From contig LDOQ01000005.1 in NCBI GenBank assembly GCA_001887945.1, positions 1 through 64,000 of the forward strand: 64,000 nucleotides of DNA, read 5' to 3'. The position numbers and the translations under genes were made by a program. The notes below the pieces were generated by a model. The model was given only the letters and a program-made list of their open reading frames with translations. It searched no databases and was not told the origin of the DNA. This document shows, piece after piece, positions 5,466 to 60,882 of the stretch. Position 1 is the first letter of the stretch; each line of letters opens with the position of its first letter. The stretch is from Spraguea lophii. Taxonomy: Eukaryota; Microsporidia; Spragueidae.

Positions 5466-5935
5466 GTCCGTTTGGTCTAGTGGTCGTGGGAAATAACATA
5501 ATCTTAGGATTGGTGTGTTCGAACCCCCCCACTGAGAATAATTTTTAGAAAAAAAAGAATAAAAGATCGAAGAGAAATATTGTTGATTGGATGAAGATTT
5601 GATAATGTACATTAACCATGTCTTATATGATGGCCTTATTACTCGATCAAAATAGCGTTGGACCAGTGTAATTGTAATCCCTATATTGATTTATGACTCG
5701 CCCAATACTATATCAAGAAATAGATTATGAATCTCTAAGAAACTAGGAGGGGGAGGCAACATGCATAATATGCAAAGTCCCAACTTATTGGACCATATGG
5801 TAAAATGAGAGTAATGCGTATCTATAGTGAAAGTAGTTAATACGAATTTGGGTCTACTTTAGGAACAAAATGTCGTAAACCACGATATGCCACGTCAGTT
5901 AAGAAACTTCGATAAATAAAAGTTTCATTAGAAAA
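5466..5935 (+). repeat. SINE-like repeat copy A (tRNA-like head)
   Basis: First of six copies of a dispersed family. The head (GTCCGTTTGGTCTAGTGGTC) contains an A-box-like element, and a B-box-like GTGTTCGAACCCC follows about 35 bases later, the spacing of a tRNA gene. The body shares ordered blocks with the other copies, including the ATTGATTTATGACTCG and AAAATGAGAGTAATGC segments. It ends in GATAAATAAAAGTTTCATTA. Diverged from copy B by scattered substitutions; no clear target duplication. Confidence 0.75.
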
Positions 5936-6024
5936 AATAATTACAATAAGATTTTTAACTAAAGAATGATAAATAAATATAATTTATTTATTTTCTAAAT
6001 TTATATTATACCTTATTGGTAAAA

Positions 6025-6069
6025 ATATTTTAAATGTTTATTTTAAATAAAAACAAACATTTAAAATAT
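6025..6069. repeat. Perfect 15-bp inverted repeat (hairpin)
   Basis: ATATTTTAAATGTTT at 6025-6039 is the exact reverse complement of 6055-6069, separated by 15 bases. It lies between SINE-like copies A and B, directly upstream of the target duplication of copy B. It may fold as a hairpin in DNA or RNA; no function is evident. Confidence 0.7.
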
Positions 6070-6074
6070 CTTGA

Positions 6075-6086
6075 TATAAAATCATT
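6075..6086 (+). repeat. 5' target-site duplication of SINE-like copy B
   Basis: TATAAAATCATT here is repeated exactly at 6580-6591, immediately after the 3' end of copy B. A perfect 12-bp direct repeat bracketing the element is the hallmark of target-primed retroposition. Confidence 0.8.
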
Positions 6087-6579
6087 GTCCCGTCTGGCCC
6101 AGTGGTCGTGGGGTGGTAACCAAACCCCAAGCCTGGCGGGTTCGAATCCCTCATCCAGAAAAAGTTTTCAAAACAAAAAAAAATAATAATAATAAATGCA
6201 GAAGAGAAGAAAAAGGTTGTTGAGTGGGTGAGGTTTCGATAGCGCAGCATAGCTGTGCCTTGTATGACGGCCCCGCTACTAGATTAAAGTAGTGTTTAGC
6301 TGATGTAGTTGCAATCCCTGTATTGATTAGTGACTCGGCCAATACTATGCAACGAAAGAGGCTGGGAATTCCTTAAGAGCTGGAAGTGGGGGCGGCGACG
6401 CGCACCATACGCAAAATCCTAACACTCTGGAGCATAAGGTAAGATGAGATTAATGCATATTCGTAGCGAAACCAGTTAGTACAAGTTTAATGTCGCTCGA
6501 GGAACCGAAGGTCACAGACCATGGTAGGCCGCAACCGTCCAGGAAGCTTTGATAAATAAAAGTTTCATTCGTAAAAAGG
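6087..6579 (+). repeat. SINE-like repeat copy B, best-preserved copy, with 12-bp target duplication
   Basis: About 493 bp. The head has an A box (TGGCCCAGTGG) and a textbook B box (GGTTCGAATCC), so it can be read as an internal Pol III promoter derived from a tRNA. An A-rich linker then leads into a body that is clearly more GC-rich than the surroundings. The 3' end is GATAAATAAAAGTTTCATTC followed by an A-rich tail. It encodes no protein. Perfect 12-bp direct repeats flank it. The preserved promoter boxes and target duplication suggest a younger insertion than copies A, C, E and F. The family responsible for mobilising it is not visible in the window. Confidence 0.85.
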
Positions 6580-6591
6580 TATAAAATCATT
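6580..6591 (+). repeat. 3' target-site duplication of SINE-like copy B
   Basis: TATAAAATCATT, identical to 6075-6086, directly after the element's A-rich 3' tail. Confidence 0.8.
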
Positions 6592-6666
6592 ATTATTTTT
6601 TATTGTTTAACATAAAATAAAAATTGTTTTAAAAATAAAATGTTAATTACATATTTTAATAAACTC

Positions 6667-7977
6667 CTACAAGCTTTTTAAAGCAAATTTCAACTTTTTA
6701 TATTCACACATTAATTTACCAGAAATATCCTCATTTGAATCCCCTTGTTCTAAAATAATTATCATTTTATTTAAATATTGAATTTTTACTTTCTTATAAA
6801 CTTTCCTTTCGTGTTTCAAGTTTATTGGATTTTCTCTTTCAGCTATTTTAATTTCTTCAAATATTAAAAATTTCATAAGCTCATTATAAATTTTCATACT
6901 TTCATAAAATATCAATTCTACAAATGATTTTATAATTATTCCATCTATTTTACTTTTCGTGGATTTATATTCTAAAATCATGGATATTGTATCAGAATTG
7001 TTAATTTTAGCTTTATAGGAAATAGATGATTTTAAAAAGCTTATTATATTTTTATATAAAATATCCTTCTTATTTGTTATATTTATCAATACACATAAGA
7101 AATCGTTTACTGGAATATTTTTGTCGTAATTATTGTTCTGAGAATCTGTTTCTATATCTCTTTGTAATAATTCAATTTGATCTATAATATCTGCAAATTC
7201 ACTGTTATTCCTTGTATCTTCTTCATTCAATAAAATATTTTGAAAAATATTCATTTTTTCGTAATTTAATCCTTTGAGATTAATGTAATATTTATCAGAT
7301 AACGAAATATCAAATTCCAATTCATAATTTCTTATATATTCTTCAATTGATATTTCATTTGTAGGTGTTCTAATATTTGATTCTAAGGATGAAATATCAG
7401 TAACACATTTATTAGGTGGAATTATTTGTTCTGTATACTCAGAAGAATATAAATTTCTTTGAAAAAATATTTCAGGATTTTTTTCTGGTTCGTATATTTC
7501 TTGTTCGGCTTGTGATGAATGTTCAAATACAAAACGATCTGAAATAGGTGGTGGAAGTGATAATTCATATTCGTCTTTTTTCATAAAACCCTGTCCTCTA
7601 GATTTACCACAATTTTTTTTAGCACGCTTAGGTTGTCTGTTCGTCATCTCATCTACCCGTGAATTTTCTAATGGATCAAAAAAATGAACTTTCTTCTCAG
7701 ATTCTAGATCTTCTTCATCTACCAACCTTGAAAATTCCTCATCCGTACTTCTTATTCCAAACATAGAATGCTTCCTCGTTCTTAAATATCTCCGTATTTT
7801 CATTTTTTCTATTTCTTCTTTTGAAGATTGATTAATAACTAAATTTTTTATAAGTTCATTTACTGTAGTCAACCCCAAATCCGTATTATATTCTTCTGAT
7901 TCCTGTTCGTTTATATCTAATAGCTTTTTATCGTCACTATAAGCAGAATATACTATTTTTAATAACAATATAATCAT
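6667..7977 (-). CDS. Putative secreted protein, lineage-specific
   Basis: A 436-residue protein if translation starts at the ATG at 7977. A further in-frame TTG lies just upstream, but ATG is the plausible start. The N-terminus MIILLLKIVYSAYS is a short hydrophobic signal peptide with a likely cleavage site before DDKK. The mature part is hydrophilic and rich in Glu, Lys, Asn and Ile, with a basic stretch (RQPKRAKKNCGKSRG) near residue 120 and helical C-terminal segments. No domain was recognised. In a microsporidian a signal peptide followed by a novel charged body fits a secreted host-facing or spore protein, but that is inference. SINE-like copy B ends about 75 bp downstream of its stop codon. 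Confidence 0.7.
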   Translation of the reverse strand: MIILLLKIVYSAYSDDKKLLDINEQESEEYNTDLGLTTVNELIKNLVINQSSKEEIEKMKIRRYLRTRKHSMFGIRSTDEEFSRLVDEEDLESEKKVHFFDPLENSRVDEMTNRQPKRAKKNCGKSRGQGFMKKDEYELSLPPPISDRFVFEHSSQAEQEIYEPEKNPEIFFQRNLYSSEYTEQIIPPNKCVTDISSLESNIRTPTNEISIEEYIRNYELEFDISLSDKYYINLKGLNYEKMNIFQNILLNEEDTRNNSEFADIIDQIELLQRDIETDSQNNNYDKNIPVNDFLCVLINITNKKDILYKNIISFLKSSISYKAKINNSDTISMILEYKSTKSKIDGIIIKSFVELIFYESMKIYNELMKFLIFEEIKIAERENPINLKHERKVYKKVKIQYLNKMIIILEQGDSNEDISGKLMCEYKKLKFALKSL

Positions 7978-8039
7978 AATACTCAAAATATAATCATTAT
8001 ATTTATACCTTGAAATTTTCCATTTTTAGAAATTTTAAA

Positions 8040-8790
8040 ATTAAATATTATAATTGTAAATACCTTTAAGATTTTATCAAAATCTAATCATAACAAAAAC
8101 ATTGACATTTTGATAGACTTTCATTAAATTAAAATTTTGAAATATTCATTTATGATTAAAAAGTACATTGAAATTTTGAAATATTCGTTTACCATTAGAA
8201 ACATTAAAATTAAAATATTAGTTTATGATTAAGAAGTACATTGAAATTTTTTATTTAAAGTATTTTAAAGATATAAATCAAATGATAGAAATCGAATGAT
8301 AGAAAGATAATAATTTCAAAATCATCACGTCAAAAAAGCTTTTAAATTTCTTAATACATTTATTATAAAACCATTTAGTAATAAATATATATTAACAAAT
8401 ATATATACGTTTGAATTATATTACAACATTTAAAATTTTCTTATAGTAAAAAAAAAGTAATAGAAATTTATAACCCGTGAAGATTAAAAGTTTAATAGAA
8501 GAGTTAAAAATATAAAATAATAGAAATTTAATGTTATAATAAAACATTTATTATTATTATCTTACAATTATTATAATATGTTTTATTATAATATAATATA
8601 TTAATATTCCTTATAATAATAAATAAACGAATAATTATCTCTTCATCTAATAAAAAATAAAAAAATAATATTCTAAAAGATTTCTAAATATAAAAAATTC
8701 ACTTAGACACATGAAACAACGTTAAAACGATTAAATTTAAAATAAACTCCAATGAATTTAGCCTACAGGAATAATAATAACAATGATTAG
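8040..8790. other. AT-rich intergenic region, no gene seen
   Basis: Contains imperfect repeats around 8130-8240 in which ATTGAAATTTTGAAATATTC-like units recur three times. Otherwise homopolymers and AT tracts. The open frame that runs into it from 8974 to 8699 on the minus strand is Ile/Tyr-dominated repeat translation. Confidence 0.5.
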
Positions 8791-8862
8791 AAATAATAAA
8801 TATAATAAAATAATAATAGATTATAATAGATTGTATTTTATAGTTATATGTTATGATGATAT
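8791..8862 (+). repeat. Left arm of a perfect 72-bp inverted repeat
   Basis: This 72-base arm is the exact reverse complement of 9257-9328. The arms enclose 394 bp that contain a 47-codon ORF. Even in AT-rich DNA a 72-bp match with no mismatch is far beyond chance and implies recent duplication, gene conversion between arms, or a fold-back element. Confidence 0.85.
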
Positions 8863-9014
8863 GGTTATAGATTATGTTATGATAATATGATTGGTTGTAA
8901 TATGCTGATATGATTGGTTGTAATATTTTATTATTACATTTATAATATAGGTATATTCTATATCCTATAACCATATAATATACAATCTATTATCATAATC
9001 ATTTTATTATACCC

Positions 9015-9158
9015 ATGAGAAATTTAGAAAATGTTCATAATATTCTTTTATCTGATTTAACAGAAAATAATTCAGAATTATACAGAAGATTAAGAAAACA
9101 CTATGAAAAGAATTTTAATATAGATTTTAATGAAATTAGAAGAAAATATAATAATTGA
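9015..9158 (+). CDS. Small 47-residue protein
   Basis: ATG at 9015 is preceded immediately by ACCC, the start-site motif shared by the recognised genes of the island, which is the main reason to call it a gene. The product is 47 residues ending at TGA 9156-9158. It is hydrophilic, predicted helical and charged (ELYRRLRKHYEKNF near the middle), with no signal peptide or membrane segment. No family was recognised. It sits inside the loop of the 72-bp inverted repeat. Confidence 0.5.
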   Translation: MRNLENVHNILLSDLTENNSELYRRLRKHYEKNFNIDFNEIRRKYNN

Positions 9159-9256
9159 TGTAATAATATATATTATAATATTGTTATAATAATACTATGG
9201 TTATGATATTGTTATATTATTATAATATGCTTATCATTATTTTATTAGATACTTTA

Positions 9257-9328
9257 ATATCATCATAACATATAACTATAAAATACAATCTATTATAATC
9301 TATTATTATTTTATTATATTTATTATTT
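9257..9328 (-). repeat. Right arm of the 72-bp inverted repeat
   Basis: Exact reverse complement of 8791-8862. The match stops abruptly on both sides; no direct repeats were found outside the arms. Confidence 0.85.
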
Positions 9329-9398
9329 TATCATAATCATTTTTCTTACAAACTATGTTTTAAGATTGTATAATTTACTTTCTTACTGTAAAATACAT

Positions 9399-9629: not shown

Positions 9630-9639
9630 AAATAATTTG

Positions 9640-12265: not shown

Positions 12266-15200
12266 TTATATGATATCATTGTAATCTTCATCTTCTGTCT
12301 CTCTATCACTTATATTACTACCTAATATATTATTCTTCTTTTTATTTATTATCTCTTTATCGTTATGATCTAATATTCCTGTCATATCTATATTTTTATT
12401 TTCTTCTGTTATCAAACTACTAGCTAAATATATTTTAAATTTCTGTAAAGACATTATTCTCTCTTCTATCGTATTCTTAGTAATTAATCTTATAACATTT
12501 ACACATTTCTTTTGTCCTATTCTATGGGCTCTATCCATAGCCTGTAGATCATTGAAAGGATTCCAATCGTGTTCAAAGAATATAACAGTAGAAGCAGAGG
12601 TTAGATTTAATCCTAATCCTCCTATACTGGTAGTTAATAATAAAATTCTAATAGAAGAAGAATTAAATTTATCTACTACTCTTCCTCTCTCTGAAGGTTC
12701 TACACTTCCATCTAAGATTGAATATGATATATTCATTGCTATTAATAAATCTTCTATAATAAGTTTTATAGTATTTTTATACTGGCAGAATATTAATATT
12801 TTATCTTCTATCATACTGAGTATCTCTCCTAAAGCTTTCATCTTAGAACTATTATCATTTGGATTTACTTGTTTTTTATTTACCAATGCTAAATGACTGC
12901 ATATTTTTAATTGTTGATTTAATATTCTTAGACCGTCTCTAGGTATTTTATTTATTTTCTTATAATCTTTATATTGATTTATAGATGGTGTAGTTGTTGT
13001 TATATTTTTGTTATCTGTTATATTTTTGTTATTCATATCTTTACTATTCATATCACTTATATCTCCCACGTCTCTATCTCCCGCATCTCTATTATCACTC
13101 TCATGGTTATCGTCTATGAGTAATTCTGCTTTGTTATATTCTTCTCTTTGCTTAGTTGATAATTCTACTATAACATCTTTAACAATCTTAGGTGGTATTT
13201 CTTTTAATACATCTTCTTTTACTCTTCTAAGAATAAATGGTAATATTTTATTATGTAATTCTTTTAATAATTCTACTATTTCTTCTCCTTCTTTATCAGT
13301 GTATGCTTTCTTATTCTCTCTAAATTTTAATAATGCACCATATCTACCATTAAATGATTTATATTCTCCTAGGTAATTTCTATTGATAATATTAAATAAT
13401 GCATAAATATCTGTTATAGTATTTTGTATTGGTGTACCACTTACTATTATTTTATTTTTAGATTTTAATAATAATATTCTTTTATACAAAAGAGTATCTT
13501 TATTTCTAAGAAGATGACCTTCATCCAAGATAATATAATCATATTCTATTTCTATTAATTTCTTATAAGCTATCCTATAGGTATCATAAGATATTATTAA
13601 TAAATTATATTCTTTATTCTCTTTAGAATATATCAATGGTATAATATTATTAGTAACCTTTAAAGATTCATTATACCAATGTGTTATAAGAGAAGAAGGG
13701 CATATAACCAGGAATCTACCTGTGATGGTTAGTGTATTGTTAATTGTAGTGGTGGTAATATTGTTAGTTGTATTGTTGTTAGTTAGTGTAGTATTATTCG
13801 TTGTATTGTTATCAGTTCTCGTATCTCTCTTATTATCACTCTTACCATCTTTATTACTCTTACTACTCTTACTATCATTTCTACTATCACTTCGAATACT
13901 ATTACCACCACTACTCTTACTATTACTCTTACTACCACTCTTAATCTCATTAGAATTATAAGAATATCTTTTAAGATATTTATTCTCTTTAACTAAATAA
14001 CTAAGAAATGCTAATACCTGTACTGTTTTACCTAATCCCATATCATCTGCTAATATACCATTCATTCCTATTCTATAAAGAAAATTAATCCATTTAATAC
14101 CTTCTATCTGATATTCTCTTAATTCTAAATTTATATCACTTTCTATTTCTTTTATATTTTTACTATCCAATATTTCATTTACTAGAATATATTCATTATC
14201 TATTTTATCTTTCATATCCTTAGAAATATTATATTCTTCTTTTATATAAATATTAGATAATACCACAGATAAACATTCTTGTATTATTTCTACCTCTGAT
14301 TTATTGATAGTTTCAATATCTTTATTGATAATTTCATTCTTGGTAATAATGTTATTGATATCTTTATTGATGTCTTTAGTAATGGTTTTAATATCGTTAA
14401 TAGTTTTAGTATTGGTTTTAGTAGTAATTCTATCCTTAGTATTATCTTTATCACCATTCTTATCTTTAATATTATCACACATATTACTTATATCACTTTG
14501 TTCATTACACTCTCTAAGTTTCTTTATTAAAGGTCTTAGAAATAATACATTAAAACATCTATGTTGTATATTTATTATCTCTCTTAATATATTTATATCT
14601 AATTCTTTTAATAAATATTCTACTATTATTTCATTATATTTTATATCCTTAATAAAATATTTTAATATTTTTATTCTTTTATATTCTAATGCATATTTTA
14701 ATATAAAAGAATATATTTTTATATCTTCTACGTATTCTATAATATTTTCTATAAAATATAATACATCATTTATGTTATCTATTTTAATATCTATATGATT
14801 GGTAATAGTATCTATATTATTTATATTACCTATATTATCATTATAATGATATAATATTATTTTATATAAATTATATTCTATTATTCTATCTCCTAATACT
14901 TTAAAGAATATTCTATTATTAATATTATTATTAATTATATTATAATAAATATTATATATTAATATATTTATATTAGTTATAGTTATATTATTGGTAGTAT
15001 GATTGGTAGTAGTATTAGTATTAGTATTAGTATTAGTATTAGTATTAGTATTATTGTTGTTGGTATCTATATCATTAATAATATTATCTCTCATACCACC
15101 TATATCATTATTATCATTGTAGTGTATAGATATTATAATATAGCTTATATATTCTAATAATATAATATTATCTTCTCTTCTATAATATTCTATTATATTA

Positions 15201-17788
15201 TTTATATTAAAATATTTATATGTAATATCTCTAATATATAAATAATAAAGATTATTTATCTGAGGATTGATAGATGTATATTCTATTCTCTTTAAGAAAT
15301 TATTAATATTAATATTATTATATTCTTTATATTTGCTTGTATATTCTTTTATCCACGTATAATCTTTATAGTATTTATTCGTATGATTGGTAATAGTATG
15401 GTTAGTAGTGGTTAGGTTGGTTGTATTGTTGGTATGAGTGGTAGTAATAGTATGAGTAGTAATATTGTTGTTAATATGGTTATTACTACCCAACTCTTTA
15501 TTATCACGACAATCTAACTCTTTATAATTTCTATACTCACTATATTCACACCCACGATTAGTGAATAATAAAAATAAATTACTTAGCATATTAAAGCTTA
15601 TTGAATTATTTTCTATTATTTTTATTCTTCTATTATAATATTTAAATATCTTAATTAATCTTATTCTCCGTTCTAATATAATTCCATTGCCTAACATTTT
15701 AATACCACTCTCAGTAAAGAAATATTCATTAGGATCGCTATTATCATAAAAATATTCTTTCTTTAAAGGATAAGATAATGGTAATGTAATAAGATAAATA
15801 AGTAATCTAATGGATATATCAATGATATCTAAATAATTATTATTTTCTTTAAGAGAAATATACGTATTATTAATTATTTCTATTATATTTATATTACTCT
15901 CATATTCTATCATTTTAATATTATTGTTAATATTACTGTTAGTATGGTTGTTAGTAAGTGTATCGTTGGTATTGTTAGTAATATCTTTATTATCTTCCCT
16001 ATTATCTTTCCTATTATCATTACCATTATCTCTACCATCTTTCATACTATCCGTCATATCATCTACAATATCTCTATTATCACTACGATTATATTTATTT
16101 ATTATATTTTTATATAAAGAATAATTTAAAGATAAAATATCATCGTATTCTTCTATGATTATATTTTCTATTGTAAGTAATAAAATATTAAATATAAATT
16201 CATTAGGTATTTTATCTGTATTTTCTATTATATTGATAAATATTAATATAATATTCTTTCTTATATCTTTTATAGGTGATCTAAAGAGATTAAGTAGAAA
16301 AGGTATTGTATCTATAGAACTCTGGATATTAATAGTAGTATTGTTGTTAATGGTATTATTACTTTTATCAGTATTATTACTTTTATCAGTATCACTACTC
16401 TTCGCTCTATCATTACTCTCACCATCTTTATCCTTACCATCTTTACCATATTCACACTCATTATTGTTATCATGAATACAAATAGATAGTAATTTTAATA
16501 ATAAAGATTTACTGTTAGAATATTCATCATTATCTTTAAATGATAGAAGAATATTATTGTAAAGTAAAATCTTATCTGTATAATCATATAATGATAATAA
16601 TAATTTACAAGAATAATATTTTACATCATCAGATGTTGATAATAAAAGTTCAGAGGAATAGTTGATTATTTCTTTGAGTGTTTCTTGGTATTCATTGCAT
16701 GCAGAATTATTTATGGCTGAATGTTCATTGTTAGGTATTATGGTATTATTTTCTATGTTGGTTAGGTATTCTTTGATATTATAAAATGACATTAGGATAG
16801 AACATTTTGATTCCCAATCTTCATTTGAATGTAAAATCTTGTATAATATTTTTATTGTTTTATTTTTACAAAGGTATTCGAATATTATGGATAGGAGATA
16901 GGCTGCTGCTTCTCTAGCAGGGAATGTTACGGTTTCTCCTATGAAATCTGAAAATCTATCATTTTCTAGAATATCTAAAATATTTAATAATAATAAATTA
17001 TTAAGTGTTGTAGGTGTGTTATTGCAATAAATATTAATTCTTTTATTTTCATGGATAAAACGATTTTTAGTTTCTTTTATACTTTTTTCTGAAGTTTGTT
17101 TGTTTGTTAATTTGTTTATGCTATTTTGTTTGTTTGTTGGTTCATTTGCATTGTTTTGTTTGTTTGTTAATTCATTTGTATTGATTTTATGTTCAGAATT
17201 ACTATTTCTTTGCTTATGATTTTTTATCAATGCACCAAGAGCTAGAAGACTCCCATGCCTAATATACCATTGATCACTAACAATATTATTTTCCAATCTT
17301 TTAACAAATTCTTCAACACTATTAAATTTATGTTCTAGAATCTTCTTCCTTCTTTTTACCGATTCTTTCTTTCGATACGAAAGATCTTTAGCCTCTATAA
17401 ATTCTACTTTATCCACTCTATCATTATATCCCAACTCTTTTCTTATTTCATCTTTTTGTTTCTTAATATCAACATCCAAGGTTGTATATTCAGTACCATC
17501 ACTTTGATAATAAATTCTACCCTGTTTACTTTGACCCTCAGTATTTTCATCTAAAATATCATAATAAATAAAACCTGGTAATTCTATTTTTATATTTAAA
17601 TGCTTAACAATACGTGCAGCAGCTATTCTATTCTCCCATTGAAGACTTGTTACCAATTTATATATTTTATTAAGAATATAATTATTAACTTCTTTCAACT
17701 CCACCAATAATTCATCAACAAGTAAATTCTTCAAAATTTTATTGTTGTTAGATTCTATGCATTCAAAGAGTTTTTCTATTCTTGACAT
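12266..17788 (-). CDS. MOT1: TATA-binding-protein-associated ATPase MOT1 (BTAF1), Swi2/Snf2 family
   Basis: An 1840-residue protein. In the family MOT1 binds TBP through N-terminal HEAT repeats and uses ATP to strip TBP from DNA. The N-terminus starts SRIEKLFECI and holds helical repeats with RIAAARIVKHL. The Snf2 motor is C-terminal: Walker A in GILADDMGLGKT near residue 1250, DEGH box in ILDEGHLLRNK near 1420, and helicase motifs V-VI in TTSIGGLGLNL and DRAHRIGQ near 1720-1750. The start was set at 17788 because CCC lies four bases upstream; an ATG 21 bases further out lacks it. The middle carries large Asn/Thr/Asp-rich inserts, including a Thr-Asn repeat encoded by TTAGTA hexamers. These make the protein much longer than the conserved parts require. 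Confidence 0.95.
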   Translation of the reverse strand: MSRIEKLFECIESNNNKILKNLLVDELLVELKEVNNYILNKIYKLVTSLQWENRIAAARIVKHLNIKIELPGFIYYDILDENTEGQSKQGRIYYQSDGTEYTTLDVDIKKQKDEIRKELGYNDRVDKVEFIEAKDLSYRKKESVKRRKKILEHKFNSVEEFVKRLENNIVSDQWYIRHGSLLALGALIKNHKQRNSNSEHKINTNELTNKQNNANEPTNKQNSINKLTNKQTSEKSIKETKNRFIHENKRINIYCNNTPTTLNNLLLLNILDILENDRFSDFIGETVTFPAREAAAYLLSIIFEYLCKNKTIKILYKILHSNEDWESKCSILMSFYNIKEYLTNIENNTIIPNNEHSAINNSACNEYQETLKEIINYSSELLLSTSDDVKYYSCKLLLSLYDYTDKILLYNNILLSFKDNDEYSNSKSLLLKLLSICIHDNNNECEYGKDGKDKDGESNDRAKSSDTDKSNNTDKSNNTINNNTTINIQSSIDTIPFLLNLFRSPIKDIRKNIILIFINIIENTDKIPNEFIFNILLLTIENIIIEEYDDILSLNYSLYKNIINKYNRSDNRDIVDDMTDSMKDGRDNGNDNRKDNREDNKDITNNTNDTLTNNHTNSNINNNIKMIEYESNINIIEIINNTYISLKENNNYLDIIDISIRLLIYLITLPLSYPLKKEYFYDNSDPNEYFFTESGIKMLGNGIILERRIRLIKIFKYYNRRIKIIENNSISFNMLSNLFLLFTNRGCEYSEYRNYKELDCRDNKELGSNNHINNNITTHTITTTHTNNTTNLTTTNHTITNHTNKYYKDYTWIKEYTSKYKEYNNININNFLKRIEYTSINPQINNLYYLYIRDITYKYFNINNIIEYYRREDNIILLEYISYIIISIHYNDNNDIGGMRDNIINDIDTNNNNTNTNTNTNTNTNTTTNHTTNNITITNINILIYNIYYNIINNNINNRIFFKVLGDRIIEYNLYKIILYHYNDNIGNINNIDTITNHIDIKIDNINDVLYFIENIIEYVEDIKIYSFILKYALEYKRIKILKYFIKDIKYNEIIVEYLLKELDINILREIINIQHRCFNVLFLRPLIKKLRECNEQSDISNMCDNIKDKNGDKDNTKDRITTKTNTKTINDIKTITKDINKDINNIITKNEIINKDIETINKSEVEIIQECLSVVLSNIYIKEEYNISKDMKDKIDNEYILVNEILDSKNIKEIESDINLELREYQIEGIKWINFLYRIGMNGILADDMGLGKTVQVLAFLSYLVKENKYLKRYSYNSNEIKSGSKSNSKSSGGNSIRSDSRNDSKSSKSNKDGKSDNKRDTRTDNNTTNNTTLTNNNTTNNITTTTINNTLTITGRFLVICPSSLITHWYNESLKVTNNIIPLIYSKENKEYNLLIISYDTYRIAYKKLIEIEYDYIILDEGHLLRNKDTLLYKRILLLKSKNKIIVSGTPIQNTITDIYALFNIINRNYLGEYKSFNGRYGALLKFRENKKAYTDKEGEEIVELLKELHNKILPFILRRVKEDVLKEIPPKIVKDVIVELSTKQREEYNKAELLIDDNHESDNRDAGDRDVGDISDMNSKDMNNKNITDNKNITTTTPSINQYKDYKKINKIPRDGLRILNQQLKICSHLALVNKKQVNPNDNSSKMKALGEILSMIEDKILIFCQYKNTIKLIIEDLLIAMNISYSILDGSVEPSERGRVVDKFNSSSIRILLLTTSIGGLGLNLTSASTVIFFEHDWNPFNDLQAMDRAHRIGQKKCVNVIRLITKNTIEERIMSLQKFKIYLASSLITEENKNIDMTGILDHNDKEIINKKKNNILGSNISDRETEDEDYNDII
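15011..15053 (-). repeat. Hexanucleotide tandem repeat inside MOT1
   Basis: About seven copies of TTAGTA on the plus strand encode alternating Asn-Thr residues in the MOT1 insert. In-frame hexamer slippage is the likely source of the low-complexity expansion and would be length-polymorphic between strains. Confidence 0.8.
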
Positions 17789-17795
17789 TGAGGGA
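17789..17795 (-). promoter_or_regulatory. CCC start signal of MOT1
   Basis: On the minus strand the sequence reads TATCCCTCAATG. The CCC triplet at 17792-17794 is the microsporidian start-proximal signal and selects the second ATG as the start. Confidence 0.6.
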
Positions 17796-17809
17796 TAAAA
17801 TTTTAACAT

Positions 17810-20799: not shown

Positions 20800-21271
20800 A
20801 TGTAACTTGAAGTATTATGGTTTATAACCTTTGATTCTTAAAGCATATTTAAACTTATATTAATTATATATTTAAACTTGTATTAACTGATTTCGCTACA
20901 TATATGCATTAATCTCATATTACCTTATGCCTAAGTGTTGGGATTATACGTATGGTATAATGATTGTCTATCATTTACAATGATATTTTAATCTTTTTAA
21001 TGGTATAATATTGATAGAATCACAAATTAATACAGGGATTACAATTACATCAGCTAAATACTACTTTAATCAAATAATAGGTTGTTGTGCAAAATATAAT
21101 CAAATTATACTATCGAACTCTCATTCACTCAACAATCTTTCTTTTTTTCTTTTCCTCTTCTCTTCTATATTTTATTCTTTTTTTGTTTTGAAAATTCTTC
21201 TGGATATGAGATTTGAATCTATTAGGCTTATGATTTTGTTACCATCTTATAATTATTAGGTTTTGAGATTA
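20800..21271 (-). repeat. SINE-like repeat copy C (diverged)
   Basis: Minus-strand copy. The head lies at about 21250-21271, and the recognisable tRNA-like section includes GATGGTAACAAAATCATAAGCC and GATTCAAATCTCATATCCAGAA. Body blocks align in order with copies B and D, including TTTAGCTGATGTAATTGTAATCCCTGTATTAATTTGTGA and GGTAATATGAGATTAATGCATATATGTAGCGAAA, each shown here only through its short conserved core. The B box is mutated (GATTCAAATCT) and the 3' end is weak, so this copy is probably inactive. It lies upstream of DcpS. Confidence 0.7.
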
Positions 21272-24991: not shown

Positions 24992-25470
24992 ATCAAACTT
25001 GGCCCACTGATTGTGGGATGGTAACCAAACCACAAGTCTAAGTGGTTCGAATCCCTCAACCAGAAGGATTTTCAAAACAAAAAATAATAATAATAAAAAG
25101 GCTGAAGAAAAGAAAAAGATTGTTGAGTGGGTGAGGGGTCGATGCGTAGCATTAGTTATGCTTTATATATATGAATATTACTAGATTAAAGTAGTGTTTA
25201 GCTGGTGTAGTTGCAATCTCTCTATTGATTTGTGACCGGCCAATATTATGCCACGAAGAGGTTGCTAACTCCTTAAAAACTGAAAGGAGGGACGGCAACG
25301 TGCACCATACGTAAAATCTTAACAATCTGGAACATAAGGTAAGATGAGATTAACACATATCTGTGGCGAAACCAGTTAATATAAGCTTAGTTGTGCTTGA
25401 GGAACCTAAGGTCACAAACCATGGTAGACCGCAACCTGGAATTTTGATAAATAAAAGTTTCATTAGTAAA
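24992..25470 (+). repeat. SINE-like repeat copy D
   Basis: Second-best preserved copy. The head reads ACTTGGCCCACTGATTGTGG, followed by TGGTAACCAAACCACAAG and a perfect B box GGTTCGAATCC. The body matches copy B closely through TTAAAGTAGTGTTTAGCTGG, GTAAGATGAGATTAA and GGTCACAAACCATGGTAGACC. It ends in GATAAATAAAAGTTTCATTA plus A-rich tail. The A box is slightly altered. No convincing target duplication. Confidence 0.82.
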
Positions 25471-38090: not shown

Positions 38091-38309
38091 TGTGGTTTGC
38101 TGCCACTATCAATGATGGATAAGTCTTTTCTTAATAAACTTTTATTTAATTGTCTTTCACTCAATCTCAACATACGTCTCTTTCCTTCACTTTCTTTTAA
38201 GTCAAAAAGATCAATTTCTTTGACATATTTTATTTTAGAGATTTAAAGAGTTTCTAGAAGTATTCTTTGTTCTTTATATCTCTTATAAAGAACTATAACT
38301 TTAGCTACA
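38091..38309 (-). repeat. 3' LTR of the Ty3/gypsy element
   Basis: 219 bp, starting TGTAGC and ending CCACA on the element's strand (TG...CA). It differs from the 5' LTR at 41957-42175 at about five positions, all transitions, so roughly 98% identical. Confidence 0.9.
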
Positions 38310-41166
38310 CATCTCCTCCTCTAAACTTTGCTCGCAGTTTGTAACCTTCAATAAATCTCTTCGATTAATAGATCTTCCTATACCATCTATTCCCTTTATA
38401 TGATATGCTCCTTTATCTAATTTCTTAATAATTCTGTATGGGCCGGAATATCTACCATCTAATTTATTTTTCCTTTCAATCATATTTTTCTTCTTATATA
38501 CTATATCACCAATTTGTAAATCGTTGTTATCTTTTCCTCTAACCTTTTCAACCTCTGATTCTCTTTGTTTTATTGTTAATTTTACTAATTTATCTCTATA
38601 ATCATCTAATCTCTTAAGTACCGTATTTTCTGTGTCTAATTGGATATCTTTATTATTGTTCCATAATAACGGGATTCTTCCATAAATAATTTCAAATGGG
38701 CTTGTTTTTAACCTATTGTTTGGAGATATTCTGCATGCAAAAAGTGCTATTTCTAACCAATTATCCCAATCATTAAAATCTTCATTTATAAACGTACATA
38801 ATTTTTCTATTAGTGTTTTATTAAATCGTTCTACAGTTCCATTACATCGTGGATTGTACGGTGATGTCATACTTTTTTTTTATTAATCATCTGGCAGAAT
38901 AATTTAATAGTATCATTCATAAATTCTTTTCCTTGGTCTGTTACTATTTCTACGGGTGCACCGTGCCTAATAAATACATCTCTAAGCAGAAACTTTGCTA
39001 CTTCATCTGCTGTCTTTCTTCTGATTGCTATCGCTTCTGGCCACCGTGTTGTGCTATCTATTGCCGTAATAATATATTTATTTCCTTTATCTGTCTTGGG
39101 AAGAGGCCCTAATATATCTAAATGTAGTTTTGAAAAAGGCGGTCCAATTAAAATTCTCTCGTCTTTAAACCCTCTCTCCCCCCTTGAAAACTTTTTGCAT
39201 GTTTCGCATGTATCTAAAACCCTTTTTATTTCTTCTCTACTAATATGTACATCATATCCGTTTTTTAGAAATATATATATTGATTCTGTTTTAGCGTGAC
39301 CAAGATCTTCATGTATCATTTTAATAAGATTTTTGTTTTTTCTAAATTTATTATATTTAATCCTATCTCTGCGGGTCTTGATAGCATATCACTAAAGTTA
39401 TTATATATTCCTTTTATATATTCAATTTTAAATTTATATTGTTGTAATTCCATATTCCATCTCATTAACCTGTTTGTTGAATCTTTCTTTTTTATAAGAC
39501 CTTCAATTGCTTTATGGTCAGTTCTAACAATAAATTCTTTACCTAAATATATTTTAAACTTCTTTATCGACCATACTACCGCAAGCATCTCTTTCTCTGT
39601 TACTGTGTAGTTTATTTCCCTTTGTTCTAGTCTTCTACAAATTCAAAGTACTGGTCTGAGTCCCTCTTCTTTATTCTGCATTAATGCACCTGCTATATAG
39701 TGATTGCTGGCATCTATGTATATTATGAAATTATCTTTGAAATTTGGTAATATTAATACATTTTTCTGGCATATTAATTTTTTTATGTTTTCTAAAACTT
39801 GGGTTTCTTTATCTTCTATTTTAAAATTATTTTTCTTTAATTTTGAAGTTAATGAATAAACCACTTCAGCAAATCCAGGAATAAACTTTCTAAAGAATCC
39901 TAGGAAACCTAATAAACTTCGTAATTCTTTTATGGTTCTTGGGGGTTGTAATTTTTTTATTTTATTAATTTGTTCATCATCAATTCGTATTTCTCCTTCT
40001 GATACTTTTAATCCCAGAAACTTTACAGATGTAGATCCAAAAACACATTTTTCCAAATTCAGTCTTAAATTCCCTTTCACTAACAGATCTAATACAATTT
40101 TCAAATGTGTATAATGTTCGTCTATATTTGATGAATAGACTAAAATATCATCTAAATAAATTACACAAATTTTATACAAATATTCTTTAAAGAGTTTATT
40201 CATTATTTTCTGAAACGTGTATGGTGCGTTAATTAACCCAAATGGCATTCTATTATATTCAAATTTGCCTTCTCGTGTCACAAACGCTGTCTTATACCTA
40301 TCTTGTTCTTTAATTACTATTTGATTATATCCACTCTTAAGATCTAGTACTGAAAAAATATTTGCATCGCTTAAACTATCCGTGAGTTCTTCCATATGAG
40401 GAATTGGATATGGAATAGGAATGGTGAAGCTGTTTAATTTTCTGTAGTCTACGCAAATTCTAACTTTATTATTTTTCTTAACCAACACTAAGGGGCTTGT
40501 TATTTTTGAATTACTATCTCTTATGTAGTTTTTTTCTTTCATTTCTGTTACGTATTCTTTAATAAATAGATTATCTTCTGGTGAACGTCTGTATGATGTA
40601 GAATTTATGGTAATTGTTTCATCTTTTAATATTATTTCATGTTCTTCAGTATTTGCGGCTCTCTCTTCTTTTATATTGTTTAAATATTCCTTTATTAATT
40701 TAATAATCTTTACATCTTTAATTTCCTTCTTTAATTCGTGTTTTTCCATTTCTAAAGTATTCAATATTAATTCTGTTTTCGGAAATTTAGTAAAATTCGT
40801 TGATAAACCGTTAACATGTGTAATTAAGTTTTCTGATAAATCAATGCTTAGTTTAAATTCTCTGATAAAATCTGTACCTAATATAACCTTTTGTCTCAAA
40901 TTCTTTAATATTATAAACTCGAACTTACTTTCTACTTCTCCTTTTACATCAACAATCTTAACCTTACACTTCCCTAATGATTCTGTATTTCCAACAGCAC
41001 AGTTTATTTGAATAGCACAAGGTTCAAATTCCATATTTATTCTTCGTGCTAATTTTTCATCTATAAATGATGCTTCTGCGCCTGTATCTATTAGACCCAG
41101 ACATTCTTTATTATTTACTCTGATGATTATTTTTGGTTTCATGGATTCTTCCACTGCAATAGTCAT
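38301..41166 (-). pseudogene. Ty3/gypsy pol: protease, RT, RNase H, integrase
   Basis: Reads from 41166. The protease active site is in LIDTGAEASFID and the RT catalytic motif in VIYLDDILVYS. RNase H runs from IIYIDASNHYIAGAL to TDHKAIEGL, and integrase has HEDLGH plus CETC zinc ligands, then VTDQGKEF and VERFNKTL. A GPY/F-type C-terminus (RYSGPYRIIKKL) follows. Lesions: an in-frame TGA at 39643-39645 inside RNase H, a frame change at 39316-39319 between RNase H and integrase, and another in an A9 run near 38872 between the second Asp and the Glu. The reading frame ends nine bases inside the 3' LTR. No chromodomain seen. Confidence 0.9.
38310..38323 (-). other. Polypurine tract
   Basis: On the element strand AGAGGAGGAGATG abuts the 3' LTR, the expected position for the plus-strand primer of reverse transcription. 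Confidence 0.75.
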
Positions 41167-49861: not shown

Positions 49862-50765
49862 TTAATAAAAAAATAAAAATAAATAAAATTTTAATATTTC
49901 AATAAACATATTATTGAATTCGTCGATTGTGGATACAGTAATAAATCTTCGTTTAAACGTATACTCACTAATCCCAAGGTCAATATTTTGTCTCATTACT
50001 CCGTTTTCTTTTCTCATTGACGATTTTAAATGGGATCAGAAACTTTCTATTGTGTTTGTGTGATCACCATCATCGTTTACAAACCCACGACTATGGTTAA
50101 TAACCCTATGGCCCAGACATAAATTTATAGCAACTGCTGAATATAAAGGATATACATCACTACATAAAATACTCCTTACGCTTACCACACCCTCTAGAAC
50201 ATTATTAAGTGTGTCCACTCTTCTGTTTATTATTCTCTTGATGAAAAAGTGTCTGATATTACGTGGATCTACAACACCTAAAATCCACACTGTATCTGCA
50301 ACTTCATCAGCTAATGTTGTAGGATTAGTAATAACATTCCTTCTCGAAAGTACAGTTTCATCCACTTCTAATAATACTCCTTCTCCACCTAGAACCAAAG
50401 GGTTTTCTCCTATATAGATTGAATAGGCTTCTCTTAATTTTGTTTTTACTGATAATATTGTATTATCAGTTATATTTAAATATATTTTTATTTGCCAATA
50501 ACTGGCACTTGACATAATAAAATATAATAATTTAATATATTTTAAAATACCTATACGCGTTTTAAAAATTGGTTTTCTTTTCTGGCAACCTTTGTGTTTA
50601 CATCTATATGCTAGATATTTATTTTCTGATTGGTTGTATATTATAAGCTTTGATTGTCCACCACAAAAAGCACATATCACCTCTTCTTGAACAATATCAT
50701 AATCTAAAAGGAATTGTTTAAGTCCCTCAATCGATTTAAATAGCTCATTTTCTAAACAAAACGTC
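49862..50765 (-). pseudogene. Merlin transposase 2, almost intact
   Basis: About 300 codons. The frame opens upstream of 50680 with ENELFKSIEGLKQFLLD, where the expected ATG is replaced by ACG. The zinc ribbon is CAFCGG and YRCKHKGC. The first catalytic Asp is in LLEVDETVLSRRN, and the second region is in LCSDVYPLYSAV. The third region, HTNTIESF, is followed by an in-frame TGA at 50036-50038 and then SHLKSSMRKENG to the end at 49862. The TGA stands where Merlin 1 has Trp, so one G-to-A change explains it. The best-preserved Merlin coding sequence in the window. Confidence 0.8.
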
Positions 50766-54360: not shown

Positions 54361-54369
54361 TTTATAACT

Positions 54370-55919: not shown

Positions 55920-57049
55920 AAATCATCGGGATTGCAATATCATTAATGCAATGATTTTAAATTGGTGAAATATAAGTTTCACAGGCATGGCATGAGTAGT
56001 GATTTCTGCATACAGCATTGTATATAATAATATTATATTGGTTGGAATTCGGTATAATTGATAGTTATAATAAGTTTTTTATATATTGATTTATATGATT
56101 ACAGATAGCCTGTACCAATATGAGTATTTACAATTAAAAGATTCAGGGAGCATATAATAAACTTTTGTTTATTTTAAATATAACTGTGGTGGTCAATGGT
56201 TTTATTTCTTCTTCCTTTAACCCGTTCTGTATTGGTTGTAATCCTAGATCATATGGTTTAAAAACTGTTACAATATAATTTCTTAATTAATATATTAAAA
56301 AAATGATATTAAAGTTGTTCTTGTTTTTTGATACCTTCTATATTATGATTAGTTTTATAATTACTAAATTCAATAAGTTTATTAACCTATTTTTATAAAA
56401 ACATTGTACAAATTTCATTAAATGTTGATAATAAAAAAATAACTTTTCTATTCTTAATCATTGATAAGACATAAAGGAATGTAGAATAATTCAAAATAAA
56501 TTATATTATCAGATATTTTAATTTTAAAATCGTAAGATAATATATACCATTAATATAAATTATGATTCTTGTCTTTTGTTAATTTATTATTGTTATATTT
56601 TATGTGATATTTTTCTATACCCCTTCATTGTTTTTATTTCTTAATTTATTCCTAATGTAAATATAAAATTAGTTCTATCAAATGTTTTTCTTGTATTCTT
56701 ATAAGATTGAGACGTGCATATCAAGCGCACACTCGATCTGAATTGCTTTATAATCTTTTTTATAATATTTCAACGTATTTTGTTGCATTTAAGTGATAAT
56801 TTATATATTCGTTTATTTGGCGATTAATTTTTTAGGAATTTTTTGAGTTTTAAGACACGTAAAAAAATAAGATAAATTTGAAAAGAAATATAGAAATAGA
56901 TTAGAAATTTATTTTTCTATGAAAAATCAATATGTATGTTATAAATTTTTTTTGTTTTTAAACGTTGTTTCTTTAGATATTTTTTAACTTATAGTTACTT
57001 TGATTTAATCTTTTGTTTGTTAATGTTATTATTTTTTGGTTTAACGAAA
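55920..57049. other. AT-rich region, possible transposon debris
   Basis: A segment at 56160-56300 on the minus strand has a degraded Merlin-like feel (GLQPIQNGLKEEEIKPL) but no catalytic motif. Nothing else recognisable. Confidence 0.3.
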
Positions 57050-57470
57050 TATTTTTTATGATTTATCACAAAATGCCATATTTATCTTTATTAATATTGT
57101 TATATTCTACCCACCATCTGTTACTACATACTACCTTCGTTTACATGTTTTTCTATAATTTTATTAAGTTCGTTAAATTTCTTATTCGGCTAATCTCGAA
57201 AAAAATATATGAACTTTCTTTATCTATATCACTTATAAGTCATAATTTTTTTGAATTCATTCTATTATATTCCTTTTAAAAATACATGATTCATCTATTT
57301 CTACCAAGATCTTATCACCTCCTATTTTCTTATTGTGTCTATTATCAAAAATATTAACTAAAATTTTAACAAATGTTTTAATTGATTAATAATCAATATT
57401 GTATTCGTTTATTATATTCTTATAGGACGAAAAAAAAAACAAATTTGTATATTATTTTTATGATTATTGT
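57050..57470 (-). pseudogene. Merlin transposase remnant
   Basis: Reads NIINEYNIDY, KTFVKILVNIFDNRHNKKIG and GGDKILVEIDESCIFKR with the first catalytic Asp, near 57270-57440. A degraded YVVTDGG segment near 57110 follows in place of the second. Same subfamily as 44640-45090. Confidence 0.65.
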
Positions 57471-58239
57471 AAGAGATATTTTAGTTCTCTCAAATAACGA
57501 TTTTTTTTAATCGAACTCGATTTAGTTTTGCATTTATATCAATAACATTTCTAAATATATCCACCTGAACAACTTTAGCTATCAAAACTATACTTTTTTT
57601 AAATGTTAAACATCTGACTTGATTTTTTAATATACCTATGTTATTAGTTAATTAACAAATATAAAACATTAGCACATATACTAAGTAATTGGTCTTGTTG
57701 TGACAATCCTTTCATTCATGGGCGTTATTTTTTTACATGCCTTAAACCCCAAAATGCCTAAATTTTTAATCATACTATATGTTTATTGATATTGTTATAT
57801 ATATTAATGAGTAACTGTACTTACTTTATTTACTTTTTAAATAAAAATCATTATAAAATATAATTGAATTCTCCTGTTTAAACCAATTACTATAATATTA
57901 TGTCGTATAAATTATCATCACATCTTTGTTGCGTTATATTTAAACAGTAAAATAAGAGTGTATATTAGAAAATGTGTTTACAAATTAATTGTAAAGTTTT
58001 ATGTTTATTTTAACAATTTCCTATTCATTTTAATAAAAAATATTCTTCAAAAAATTTATGTTCTAAGTAATATAAATGTCTTTTTAAAGAACTAAGAAAA
58101 GATCGATATCACAAATTGATAATATAAACAGAAAAACTTATTATATCATGAGTATTCAAAATAAAATACCGTATACCATTATTCTAAACAACTTTATAAT
58201 GAGAAAAAATAAAAATTTTCAAACGAACTTAGAGAGGAT

Positions 58240-58860
58240 GTTATTTCTATGAAAACCAAATGTATTCTGCGAGATTTATTAAAACGATGTTAGATATGAA
58301 AGTCCTTACAATATATAATATTTAAAGAATGTATAGAAATAAGAAAGAAAATACCGGTGCATGTAAACTTACCAAATCAGAGAAATTCGAAAATAAAGTT
58401 TAATACTGAAAATAGGGGAACTTATAATAATTATTCTAAAAAAGCTTGTCTGATATATGAACGCATTCACAATATTGATGTTGGGAATCATGGTAAAGCA
58501 TACTCTGATGTGTTTGTTTTTACCACAAAAAGAATTTATATAATATAAATAAAAAGAAACACTGAAAATACAGCTATTAAAAAAAAGAATTTACAGAAAT
58601 TATTTTAATAGAATATTAGAAATCTGTGATAAAAACTTTATTTTTATCAACGTAGCAGGATTTAATGTATTGATTTAGAGCAAATGTGATAAATATCATG
58701 GGACCTGCTGATATTATAATAAATTAATATGAAGAAGAAAGAATATATCTGTAATGTTTCCGTAAATAAGAATTGAAGATATATTTCTATATTAATAACA
58801 AGCTAATAAATAGCATTGGCTTTAGAAATTGTATTGTAAGGCTTGTAAAAATATGTGAAG
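58240..58860 (+). pseudogene. Tc1/mariner-like transposase 2, N-terminal half
   Basis: Plus strand. FKECIEIRKKIPVHVNLPNQ and the open stretch 58357-58548 (NIDVG, FVFTTKRIYII) align in order with transposase 1. DKNFIFINVAGFNV near 58640 then stands in place of the DEVGFN catalytic segment, with the Asp replaced by Asn. The C-terminal half is missing; SINE-like copy E begins at its end. Confidence 0.6.
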
Positions 58861-58861
58861 T

Positions 58862-59248
58862 CGGAATGGTATAATTCGTTTTGATTATGGATAGTATTCG
58901 AGTCGACCATCATTTCGGATTAAAATTAATATTGCAGGAACAAAATAAAGAAGGTTGCAACCTTATTTTTCATAATTACATATTATTAAAAATTATCTTG
59001 GTAAATAAAAGAATAACAATATTATGTCAATAGAGAGGTTAGAAATCTCAAAAAGTTGGAAGGATGCAGTGATGTGAACAATACACAAAATCATAATGTT
59101 TTTGATTATAAAGTAAGATGGATTTAATACATATCTATGATGAAACTAGTTGTTACAGTTTAGATATATTTTAGGAATCAAAGGTCATAAACCATCCTAA
59201 GTTGAACTTGCCCGAAAACTTCTATAAATAAAGTTTTATTAAAAAAGT
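58862..59248 (+). repeat. SINE-like repeat copy E (diverged)
   Basis: Body and 3' half are recognisable: AAAGTAAGATGGATTTAATA, GATGAAACTAGTTGTTACAG and AGGTCATAAACCATC, ending TATAAATAAAGTTTTATT. The tRNA-like head is barely readable. An old copy abutting Tc1 remnant 2. Confidence 0.6.
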
Positions 59249-59249
59249 T

Positions 59250-60463
59250 ATACATATATGCTTTTGCTATGAATAAAGATATTTACGAGTTATTTTTCAA
59301 TACTAAATTTAGGCATAACGAAATCCAAGAATATTCTATATGAAAATATAAATATTTTAAAGAGATAACATTAAATGCTATAAAGAATATAAATATATAT
59401 TTTAATAATTTTGAATATAATATCAATAATATATCCAACATAATATATATAACAATTAATTTGGGTTTCTAACGATAAAAATACTTCATTCATAATATAA
59501 AAACGTGAAGAATATAAATTCTTTTTTAGAAATACTTTTCTATTAGAACCAAGACATAAAATGATTGTGAATGCTTTTTAACAATTTATAAAGATATTCT
59601 TGTAATAGAGTTTATAAATTTACAGGTATAAATGCATATTTTTACTTCATAGAGCTTTATTATATTATGTGGTGATTTTATATTCAGAATTTAGAAATAT
59701 TTTTATTCGGAAATTTATGAATAACAATGTCAAAATCTTATTGGCCGATTCTGAAAATATAATGCTGTTGTTAAATGTATGAACTATAGATTCTATAATT
59801 AGAGTGTTTATTTATAAAATTCGTTATTCTTGATGAAACTGTATTTCTATAGAATTTACTATTACTATATTAAAATATATGCCAAACATATAATTGATAT
59901 TTAAAACTTAAATAATAAGTTACTTATTACATCAAATAATTAAGTAAAAATAAACATCCAACATAATATATCTATAGACAATATTATTTATGATAAAGAT
60001 AGAACGCATCATAATTGTAACGCATGTAACATTATATATCCCAAGGATAAATGTTACTAATTTTTCTTAAATTTTCTTGCATTCATTTTCTAAAAGAACT
60101 TTATTTTTATCATTATTAATATCTATTACTTATAAGATTTTAAATACTTTGAAATGAAAGTTTAATATCCGAGCTTTCTTTACGAAACTTTTATCTTTTA
60201 TTTTAAATTTATATTTAACTCTTTATTCATTAATCTTCTTATTTTTAATATTACATGTTCTTTAAATCTGTTTATGGTATGACGCGATTCATATATTTTA
60301 CAATTAACTGGATAACTTAAAGAAATATTGGAAATTAACTTGAACGACGCAATTTGATGTATTCTTTGTATAGGTGTTTTTTAATAAATACGTCCTTTCA
60401 ATACGACAACCAACCCAAATTTTTATGAATTATACAGATATTTCTTAATTTTTTAATGGATTT
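59250..60463. other. AT-rich region with no gene seen
   Basis: Long AT tracts. No transposase motif, repeat or RNA gene could be identified. Confidence 0.5.
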
Positions 60464-60882
60464 TTTATTTATAAAAGTTTCTTGGTCGGATGTTGCATGT
60501 TGTATCTATGACATTTGGAGATAATGCATACCTAAATGTGTATTGACCGGCTTGGTAAGGTTATGCATTAATCTCATTTTATCTTGTGTTCCAGAACATT
60601 AATATTTTGCGTATGGTTCATTTAGCAACACCACGTCTTTTTAGAGATTCCTAATCTTTTCTTGGCATGTATTGACCGAGTCATAAATCATTACAGGGAT
60701 TGCGATTGTACCGGCTAAACGTTACTTTAATCTAGTAGCAGAGTAATTGGATCAAACATACCCACACGCACACAACAACCTTTCTCTCCGGATTTTTATT
60801 TTTTAATTTTTTTTGAATGAAAGATATGAACCCGTTGGGCTTGGGATTTGGTTACTTTCCACGACTCCTTGGCCAAGCGGGA
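60464..60882 (-). repeat. SINE-like repeat copy F
   Basis: Minus-strand copy. The head reads TCCCGCTTGGCCAAGGAGTC, then GTAACCAAATCCCAAGCCCA and a slightly altered B box GGGTTCATATC. Body blocks follow in order: CTAGATTAAAGTAACG, ATTTATGACTCGG and ACAAGATAAAATGAGATTAA. It ends with an AAACTTTTATAAATAAAAA-type terminus. Confidence 0.75.

Follow-up and report, generated by a model that had tools for sequence, protein, structure and literature searches.

We analysed a window of 64,000 nucleotides from the microsporidian Spraguea lophii (assembly GCA_001887945.1, contig LDOQ01000005.1, positions 1 to 64,000 of the forward strand), in which an earlier note, made from the letters of the sequence, had proposed a family of short interspersed nuclear elements (SINEs) headed by a tRNA-like sequence. 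We conclude that this element is very probably a tRNA-type SINE that lives off one lineage of long interspersed nuclear elements (LINEs) resident in the same genome. That the element is a retroposon of some kind is near certain. The assembly around the window comprises 5.27 Mb in 73 contigs (below, C numbers denote contigs and L numbers denote fetched loci). One protein of the window supports a microsporidian host: all six organism names among its 18 homologs are microsporidian (two Nosema species, Astathelohania, Trachipleistophora, Tubulinosema and Edhazardia).

Structure, abundance and insertion of the SINE

The SINE unit measures about 487 bp. Its head, which contains A and B boxes, leads through an A-rich linker into a GC-rich body that does not code for protein, and the unit closes with a fixed 3′ end and A's. 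A hidden Markov model (HMM) built from 28 young full-length copies recovered at E<1e-3 exactly the six mutually homologous places of the window that had been proposed (Table 1), and a window BLASTN search returned these six places plus two short matches at chance level. The copies lie in both orientations and their divergence is graded, as had been described, from 2.1 to 31.7% (all divergence figures are distances from the 487-nt young consensus, for hits above 50 bits). HMM matches occupy 2453 of the 64,000 bases, and the GC content of the copies is 0.24-0.46 versus 0.165-0.299 across the 2-kb bins of the window.

Other details of the original description stood in part. The HMM gave no support to the head at 58862-59016 or to the 3′ portion at 20800-20871. 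The fixed 3′ end AAATAAAAGTTTCATT is exact in three of the six copies, occurs as variants at 59 kb and 60 kb, and is absent at 20.8 kb. An A/B-box head had been ascribed to all copies; consensus boxes were found at 5466 and 6087, and the other four carry no consensus pair. Read directly, the neighbouring copies 5466 and 6087 both display the tRNA-like head and the same 3′ end.

The family extends well beyond the window. The 18-nt 3′ tag ATAAATAAAAGTTTCATT occurs 327 times in the assembly with at most one mismatch (167 forward and 160 reverse), compared with four occurrences (1 and 3) of a reversed-tag control. In a genome search with the 6087 copy (best 40 of 434 candidates), 40 of 44 rows, the query itself included, were 96-100% identical over at least 479 positions, and the other four were partial pieces of 74-97% identity. 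Young copies start with GTCCCG and most rows finish with TTTCATTCGT plus A's. An exact 28-mer of the SINE body had no occurrence in either the viral or the prokaryotic contig collection, a result that says little as these collections may omit records near the window.

Divergence from the young consensus is 0.8-4.7% in one cluster and scattered between 10.2 and 35.5% in the rest. Most copies beyond the window were retrieved by their similarity or their exact tag, which biases the young fraction and the share of intact 3′ arms upwards. A recent burst of SINE insertions over older, decayed layers is the most likely history of the family. The old copies decay towards AT, with per-site rates of 0.28 for G>A and 0.32 for C>T versus 0.065 for A>G and 0.081 for T>C.

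The copies carry the marks of individual insertion. Exact target-site duplications (TSDs) of 9-17 nt flank 28 of 40 tested copies versus 16 of 1560 mismatched flank pairs; by age, they flank 28 of 34 young copies and none of six older ones. The tested copies were taken from 52 HMM hits (model end at least 470, at least 50 bits) and had either at least 280 bits or more than 100 bits with a start at model position 100 or later, together with flanks of at least 25 nt on the 5′ side and at least 45 nt on the 3′ side. Truncation at the 5′ end affects six of the 19 young copies among 30 tag loci fetched. The shortest insert (L047) measures 39 nt including its A's and sits between two 16-nt TSD copies; it has no divergence value and was classed as young on the identity of its SINE part with that of young copies. 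The 28 insertion sites are T-rich upstream of the nick, with no sharp motif.

When the 66 flanks of 33 young copies were compared, 26 pairs proved related at E<=1e-3, one of them belonging to neighbouring copies on C16. The matches come mainly from four SINE copies inside one other repeat (L031 on C1, L003 on C72, L040 on C2 and L072 on C34) and three inside another (L002 on C13, L012 on C48 and L043 on C3). The SINE lies at differing points of these shared repeats, which indicates that SINEs entered pre-existing repeats and were not carried along with them. At C1:142812-144267 (L031 and L032), a full-length SINE on the minus strand and a truncated one on the plus strand bear swapped TSDs, possibly through recombination between inverted copies, which would have inverted the segment, or through a mis-oriented assembly.

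The earlier note had named two outcomes that would speak against a SINE, namely a unit that belongs to a larger protein-coding element and copies that genome-wide have no defined ends and target duplications. We found fixed 3′ ends and TSDs, and stops interrupt each of the six frames of the young consensus, whose longest stop-free stretch is 94 codons in antisense. The non-coding nature of the unit, its fixed ends and its duplicated targets thus support the SINE interpretation.

The head also bears signals for RNA polymerase III (Pol III). An A-to-B box pattern matched the window twice, both times in a SINE head (5466 and 6087), against a first-order Markov expectation with a mean of 0.27 per 64 kb and a maximum of 2 in 100 draws. 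The boxes are present in 26 of 28 young copies, always at position 9 and with a span of 54; the same pattern recognised 54 of the 57 tRNA matches of this genome, 19 of the 57 with a span of 54. Compared with these 57 matches, the young head aligned best to the tRNA-Arg(TCG) gene, with a score of 43 (best of 200 mononucleotide shuffles, 42). On paper, the head would work like a Pol III promoter, and it is no longer recognised as a tRNA.

The young consensus contains a single T4, near position 79, a site occupied by T4 or T5 in 27 of 28 copies. In 19 of 20 sampled tRNA genes, the first downstream run of at least four T's is at least five long, and two of the 20 contain an internal T4; hence, the T4 of the SINE need not stop Pol III in this organism. 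It may act as a weak stop, in which case full-length SINE RNA would end in flanking T-runs.

The resident LINE and the tail common to both elements

The earlier note had seen no LINE. This holds for the window as far as the reverse transcriptase (RT) search goes, the sole RT frame there (39643-41166) being of Ty3/gypsy type; a LINE is present on other contigs. Nine places emerged from the RT search of the assembly: some were Ty3/gypsy-type frames or remnants, one was a telomerase-like frame, and one a frame on C72. The latter is an open reading frame (ORF) of 479 amino acids that runs off its contig and comprises a putative endonuclease and the start of a putative RT. Its RT part resembles LINE-1 ORF2p (E about 1e-9), its homologs (20 protein matches, three of them bearing an organism name) are annotated with PF03372 and/or PF00078, and relatives of it occur on C48, C21 and C1.

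The 3′ portion of the LINE was recovered separately. Locus L020 on C21 displays a LINE C-terminus with a CCHC-like zinc knuckle (by eye), a 3′ untranslated region (UTR) and an A tail. The C-terminus is present on C21, C63, C11, C61, C27, C67, C34, C5 and C1, and the 3′ end at no fewer than 15 places (best 40 of 113 candidates), on C21, C63 (both ends), C11 (three), C67, C34, C8, C6, C5, C1, C2, C4 and C9; C61 and C27 match the 3′ region short of its end. A decayed copy on C1 bears both a C72-type RT piece and this 3′ region, which ties the ORF and the 3′ UTR together. Four contig ends (both ends of C63, and one each of C11 and C27) fall at one LINE base, 67 bp before the same match position, suggesting assembly breaks in the repeat and collapsed LINE copies.

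LINE copies are 5′-truncated and have TSDs of at least 9 nt in four of nine tested cases versus one of 72 mismatched pairs; this test covered nine of the 14 aligned LINE ends with a search looser than that for the SINE (offset of up to 6, 60 nt). At L026, an old SINE contains the last 20 nt of a LINE and A7, flanked by 19-nt duplications that differ by one mismatch; on C34, an old SINE is split near model position 326 by a LINE copy nested within it.

Comparison of the SINE 3′ end with LINE 3′ ends, as the earlier note had recommended, revealed a common tail in two blocks. In block 1, SINE positions 404-458 match the LINE 3′ UTR at 82-86% (84% over about 55 nt in the genome search, E 4.6e-9). 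Block 2 lies at the extreme 3′ end and is the weaker of the two, with ATAAATAAAAGTTTCATTCGT in the SINE versus ATAAATAAAATTTTCTTATGTT in the LINE (14 LINE ends aligned with the young SINE and one old one). Ten of the 14 LINE ends beat random window 29-mers at p<0.01 in block 2, which taken alone is modest evidence for a shared terminus. About 105 nt of LINE sequence between the blocks is absent from the SINE. Folding of the SINE 3′ end predicted a hairpin (z -3.5 when 38 nt of the consensus were folded). Shared sequence in the two tails is shown; a shared 3′ stem-loop was not found in the folding sample of eight LINE ends and three SINE copies.

Based on these findings, we propose that Pol III would transcribe the SINE from its internal A and B boxes, read past the single internal T4 and stop at T-runs in the flanking DNA. 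The endonuclease-RT of the LINE would then bind the common 3′ tail of the SINE RNA and copy that RNA into a nicked target by target-primed reverse transcription. TSDs, 5′ truncation and fixed 3′ ends, found in SINE and LINE alike, support target-primed reverse transcription, and together with the shared tail they point to the LINE enzyme as the probable agent of SINE mobilisation.

Table 1 Features of the SINE copies in the 64,000-nt window
Feature	Position	Strand	Details
Young full-length SINE copy	6087..6575	+	HMM model 1-487, E 2e-188; 2.1% from young consensus
Intermediate-age SINE copy	24992..25470	+	HMM 24998-25469, model 7-486, E 7e-110; 16.7% divergence
Old SINE copy, head and 3′ end kept	5466..5935	+	HMM 5468-5934, model 4-486, E 2e-61; 30.5% divergence
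Old SINE copy, nearly full-length, variant 3′ end	60455..60882	-	Model 2-481, E 7e-51; 27.4% divergence
Old SINE copy, 3′ tag lost	20800..21271	-	HMM only 20872-21245, model 27-402, E 6e-41; 26.5% divergence
Old SINE copy, variant 3′ end	58862..59248	+	HMM only 59017-59239, model 252-480, E 3e-16; 31.7% divergence
A box TGGCCCAGTGG of the young tRNA-like head	6095..6105	+	A-to-B span 54
B box GTTCGAATC of the young head	6140..6148	+	Box-pattern match
A box / B box of the old 5466 copy	5473-5483 / 5517-5525	+	Box-pattern match
Tail block 1, common to the LINE 3′ UTR	6490..6544	+	82% versus L020:1338-1392; 84% for most SINE rows
Predicted 3′ hairpin, arms GAAGCUUU / AAAGUUUC, moderate evidence	6543..6566	+	Folding z-scores
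Tail block 2, terminal ATAAATAAAAGTTTCATTCGT ahead of the A tail	6552..6572	+	Aligned with the LINE terminus
5′ TSD TATAAAATCATT of the 6087 copy	6075..6086	+	
3′ TSD TATAAAATCATT of the 6087 copy	6580..6591	+	

Several other sequences were considered as partner or as further LINE ends. The Ty3/gypsy frame of the window was set aside, there being no SINE HMM match at 38-42 kb; so was the RT match on C2, which was judged by eye to be telomerase-like, with a Sec61-like frame next to it. A second LINE on C21, here LINE-A (L020:1-665), was rejected for its unrelated 3′ end. It has a different C-terminus and ends in TTTTCTCCTCCTCTGGTGGAAAAC plus A's; 12 such ends exist in the genome at up to three mismatches (control 0), and L072 looks by eye like a 5′-truncated LINE-A copy with a TSD. 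Four tags with no SINE body (L027, L028, L029 and L049) were tried as LINE ends; inspection by eye recognised no LINE frame in them, and the HMM identifies L029 as an old SINE.

The window also contains, at 38301-41166 on the minus strand, Ty3/gypsy-type pieces in several frames (aspartyl protease, RT, RNase H and integrase core), and at 50036-50680 on the same strand a match below cut-off to the ISXO2/IS1595 transposase domain PF12762, in a frame which we take to be perhaps a Merlin-type element. Long low-complexity inserts rich in Asn and Thr occur in the SNF2/Mot1-like frame at 12266-17809 (minus strand) and in the telomerase-like frame of L016 (by eye). The assembly has no match to the microsporidian model of small subunit ribosomal RNA, yet has 57 matches to the tRNA model.

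Counter-evidence and alternative explanations

A number of observations weigh against a tRNA-type SINE dependent on this LINE. Regarding the head, the old 5466 copy scores 33 against the genome's own tRNAs, where the 95% line of the shuffles is 32 and their maximum 39; the head has no Rfam tRNA match even at E 10; ARAGORN called no tRNA in the window, nor in 16 SINE-bearing loci that were run together with 40 tRNA loci, of which it found 39; and folding of the head gave no cloverleaf (z -0.4). Regarding insertion, 12 of the 40 tested copies have no exact TSD of at least 9 nt. Six of these are young: two bear each other's TSD, two have near matches by eye, and two have none. As for the hairpin, z falls to -1.4 in the 50-nt stretch 6530-6579 (equalled by 15 of 200 shuffles) and lies between -1.4 and -1.5 in stretches of that length from three window copies (equalled by 15 to 23 of 200); and all eight LINE ends folded show no hairpin beyond chance (z -0.6 to +1.2). 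The LINE itself is in pieces, with the C72 ORF and the 3′ UTR joined only by the decayed C1 copy, and the domain matches of the C72 frame lie below the Pfam cut-offs (partial RVT_1, 18.5 bits; Exo_endo_phos_2, 18.5 bits). Lastly, the termini of SINE and LINE are similar, not identical: block 2 reaches p 0.03 for two LINE ends and does not beat chance for two others (0.10 and 0.16), and the 14 LINE ends are related to each other.

These differences at the termini give some weight to the idea that the element is a true SINE whose partner is another, unassembled LINE with an identical 3′ end, the LINE found here being only a cousin. The SINE ends in GTTTCATTCG and the LINE in TTTTCTTATG, the SINE has no counterpart of the intervening LINE segment, the LINE ends have no hairpin, and the contig ends that coincide at one LINE base suggest that much LINE sequence is probably outside the assembly. 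Searches for such a second partner argue against it. A tblastn search with the N- and C-terminal LINE frames gave no match in the 30 tag loci (of 327 tags), and no LINE frame was recognised by eye in the translated 1.4 kb upstream of eight of them. A search with the LINE C-terminus gave 13 rows, all at places known from LINE 3′ DNA, and the only other LINE seen, LINE-A, has an unrelated 3′ end. We therefore regard a different partner as rather unlikely, and this LINE lineage as the probable host of the SINE.

A family of functional Pol III RNA genes, spread by retroposition and kept for use, would explain why the body persists through the old layers and why 46 of 52 copies can accommodate a seven-pair stem (free best placement, real sequences only). 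That count is to be read with care, since fetching by tag selects an intact 3′ arm and the bias of C>T and G>A changes alone can produce paired changes. The decay of old copies towards AT speaks against conservation, and a search of the window against Rfam gave nothing at E<=1, which leaves this explanation very improbable.

The Ty3/gypsy domains and the weak transposase match within the window would be compatible with a fragment of a non-autonomous long terminal repeat or DNA transposon (a terminal-repeat retrotransposon in miniature or a miniature inverted-repeat transposable element) with A and B boxes by chance. This idea is already contradicted, and we give it almost no credence: TSDs range in length between 9 and 17 nt, the copies have 5′ truncations, fixed 3′ ends and A tails, and boxes at tRNA spacing recur throughout nearly all young copies. 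Finally, segmental duplication or an assembly artefact in place of retroposition, to which the related flank pairs and the swapped TSDs of the one C1 pair might lend support, is scarcely credible given the differing match offsets of the SINE within shared repeats, a separate TSD for each of 28 copies and a divergence of 0.8 to 35.5%.

Relation to known elements and significance

SINEs are known from the wider fungal lineage, where those of filamentous fungi include MGSR1/Mg-SINE and Foxy. SINEs with LINE-derived tails are a kind already known, as a review describes 58 that share their 3′ end with a partner LINE (PMC3747384). As outlined there, SINEs of the 'stringent' type combine a tRNA-like head, a body and a 3′ tail common to a resident LINE, an arrangement also displayed by the element described here. 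Unlike them, the latter has a microsporidian host and a tail in two blocks that lacks about 105 nt of the LINE; the 3′ stem-loop that the review portrays as commonly shared in the 'stringent' type was not found in our SINE/LINE pair.

Within the Microsporidia, the repeat table of Nosema bombycis includes a SINE category of 28,669 bp, or 0.18% of the genome (PMC3614468, Table 2), compared with 3.8% of our window. The likeness is one of category only, as the accompanying section gives no subtype, structure, LINE partner or boundaries. LINEs are better documented: four non-LTR families have been described in Anncaliia algerae (PMC4202319), non-LTR elements in Trachipleistophora hominis and N. ceranae (PMC3486916), and Dong-R4 in N. 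bombycis (PMC3614468). These are non-LTR elements like ours, and the passages concerned with them tie no SINE to a LINE. Neither SINE nor SINEs occurs as a whole word in the main text of PMC3486916, PMC3749934 or PMC7313128, and that of PMC4202319 does not contain SINE; the relevant part of a survey of fungal transposons (PMC6416283) treats SINEs in general terms only. In titles and the opening lines of abstracts, a coverage that leaves aside subscription papers and Repbase, we found no structural description of a microsporidian SINE.

A further-reaching interpretation is possible, and we offer it tentatively. The two elements may represent an active two-tier parasitism in a strongly reduced genome of 5.3 Mb, in which the SINE outnumbers the LINE (327 tags versus at least 15 LINE 3′ ends, the LINE being probably collapsed in the assembly). 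Having cut about 105 nt out of the LINE tail and with an end of its own, the SINE may compete better for the LINE enzyme, and recombination between SINE copies may invert chromosome segments. If so, a SINE/LINE pair would here be described structurally in Microsporidia for the first time.

These findings have implications for the understanding of genome evolution in a group that serves as the textbook case of genome reduction. The presence of at least 300 SINE ends together with a likely LINE partner indicates that a two-level retroposon system can exist in a genome that has undergone reduction. The SINE copies record their own decay, from GC-rich when young to AT-rich when old, and so offer a direct reading of mutation bias. 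Young insertions whose TSDs are clean are potential markers of strain and ploidy in a group that has few genetic tools. What we describe is one small genomic parasite that probably lives off another, within an intracellular parasite whose own genome is small.

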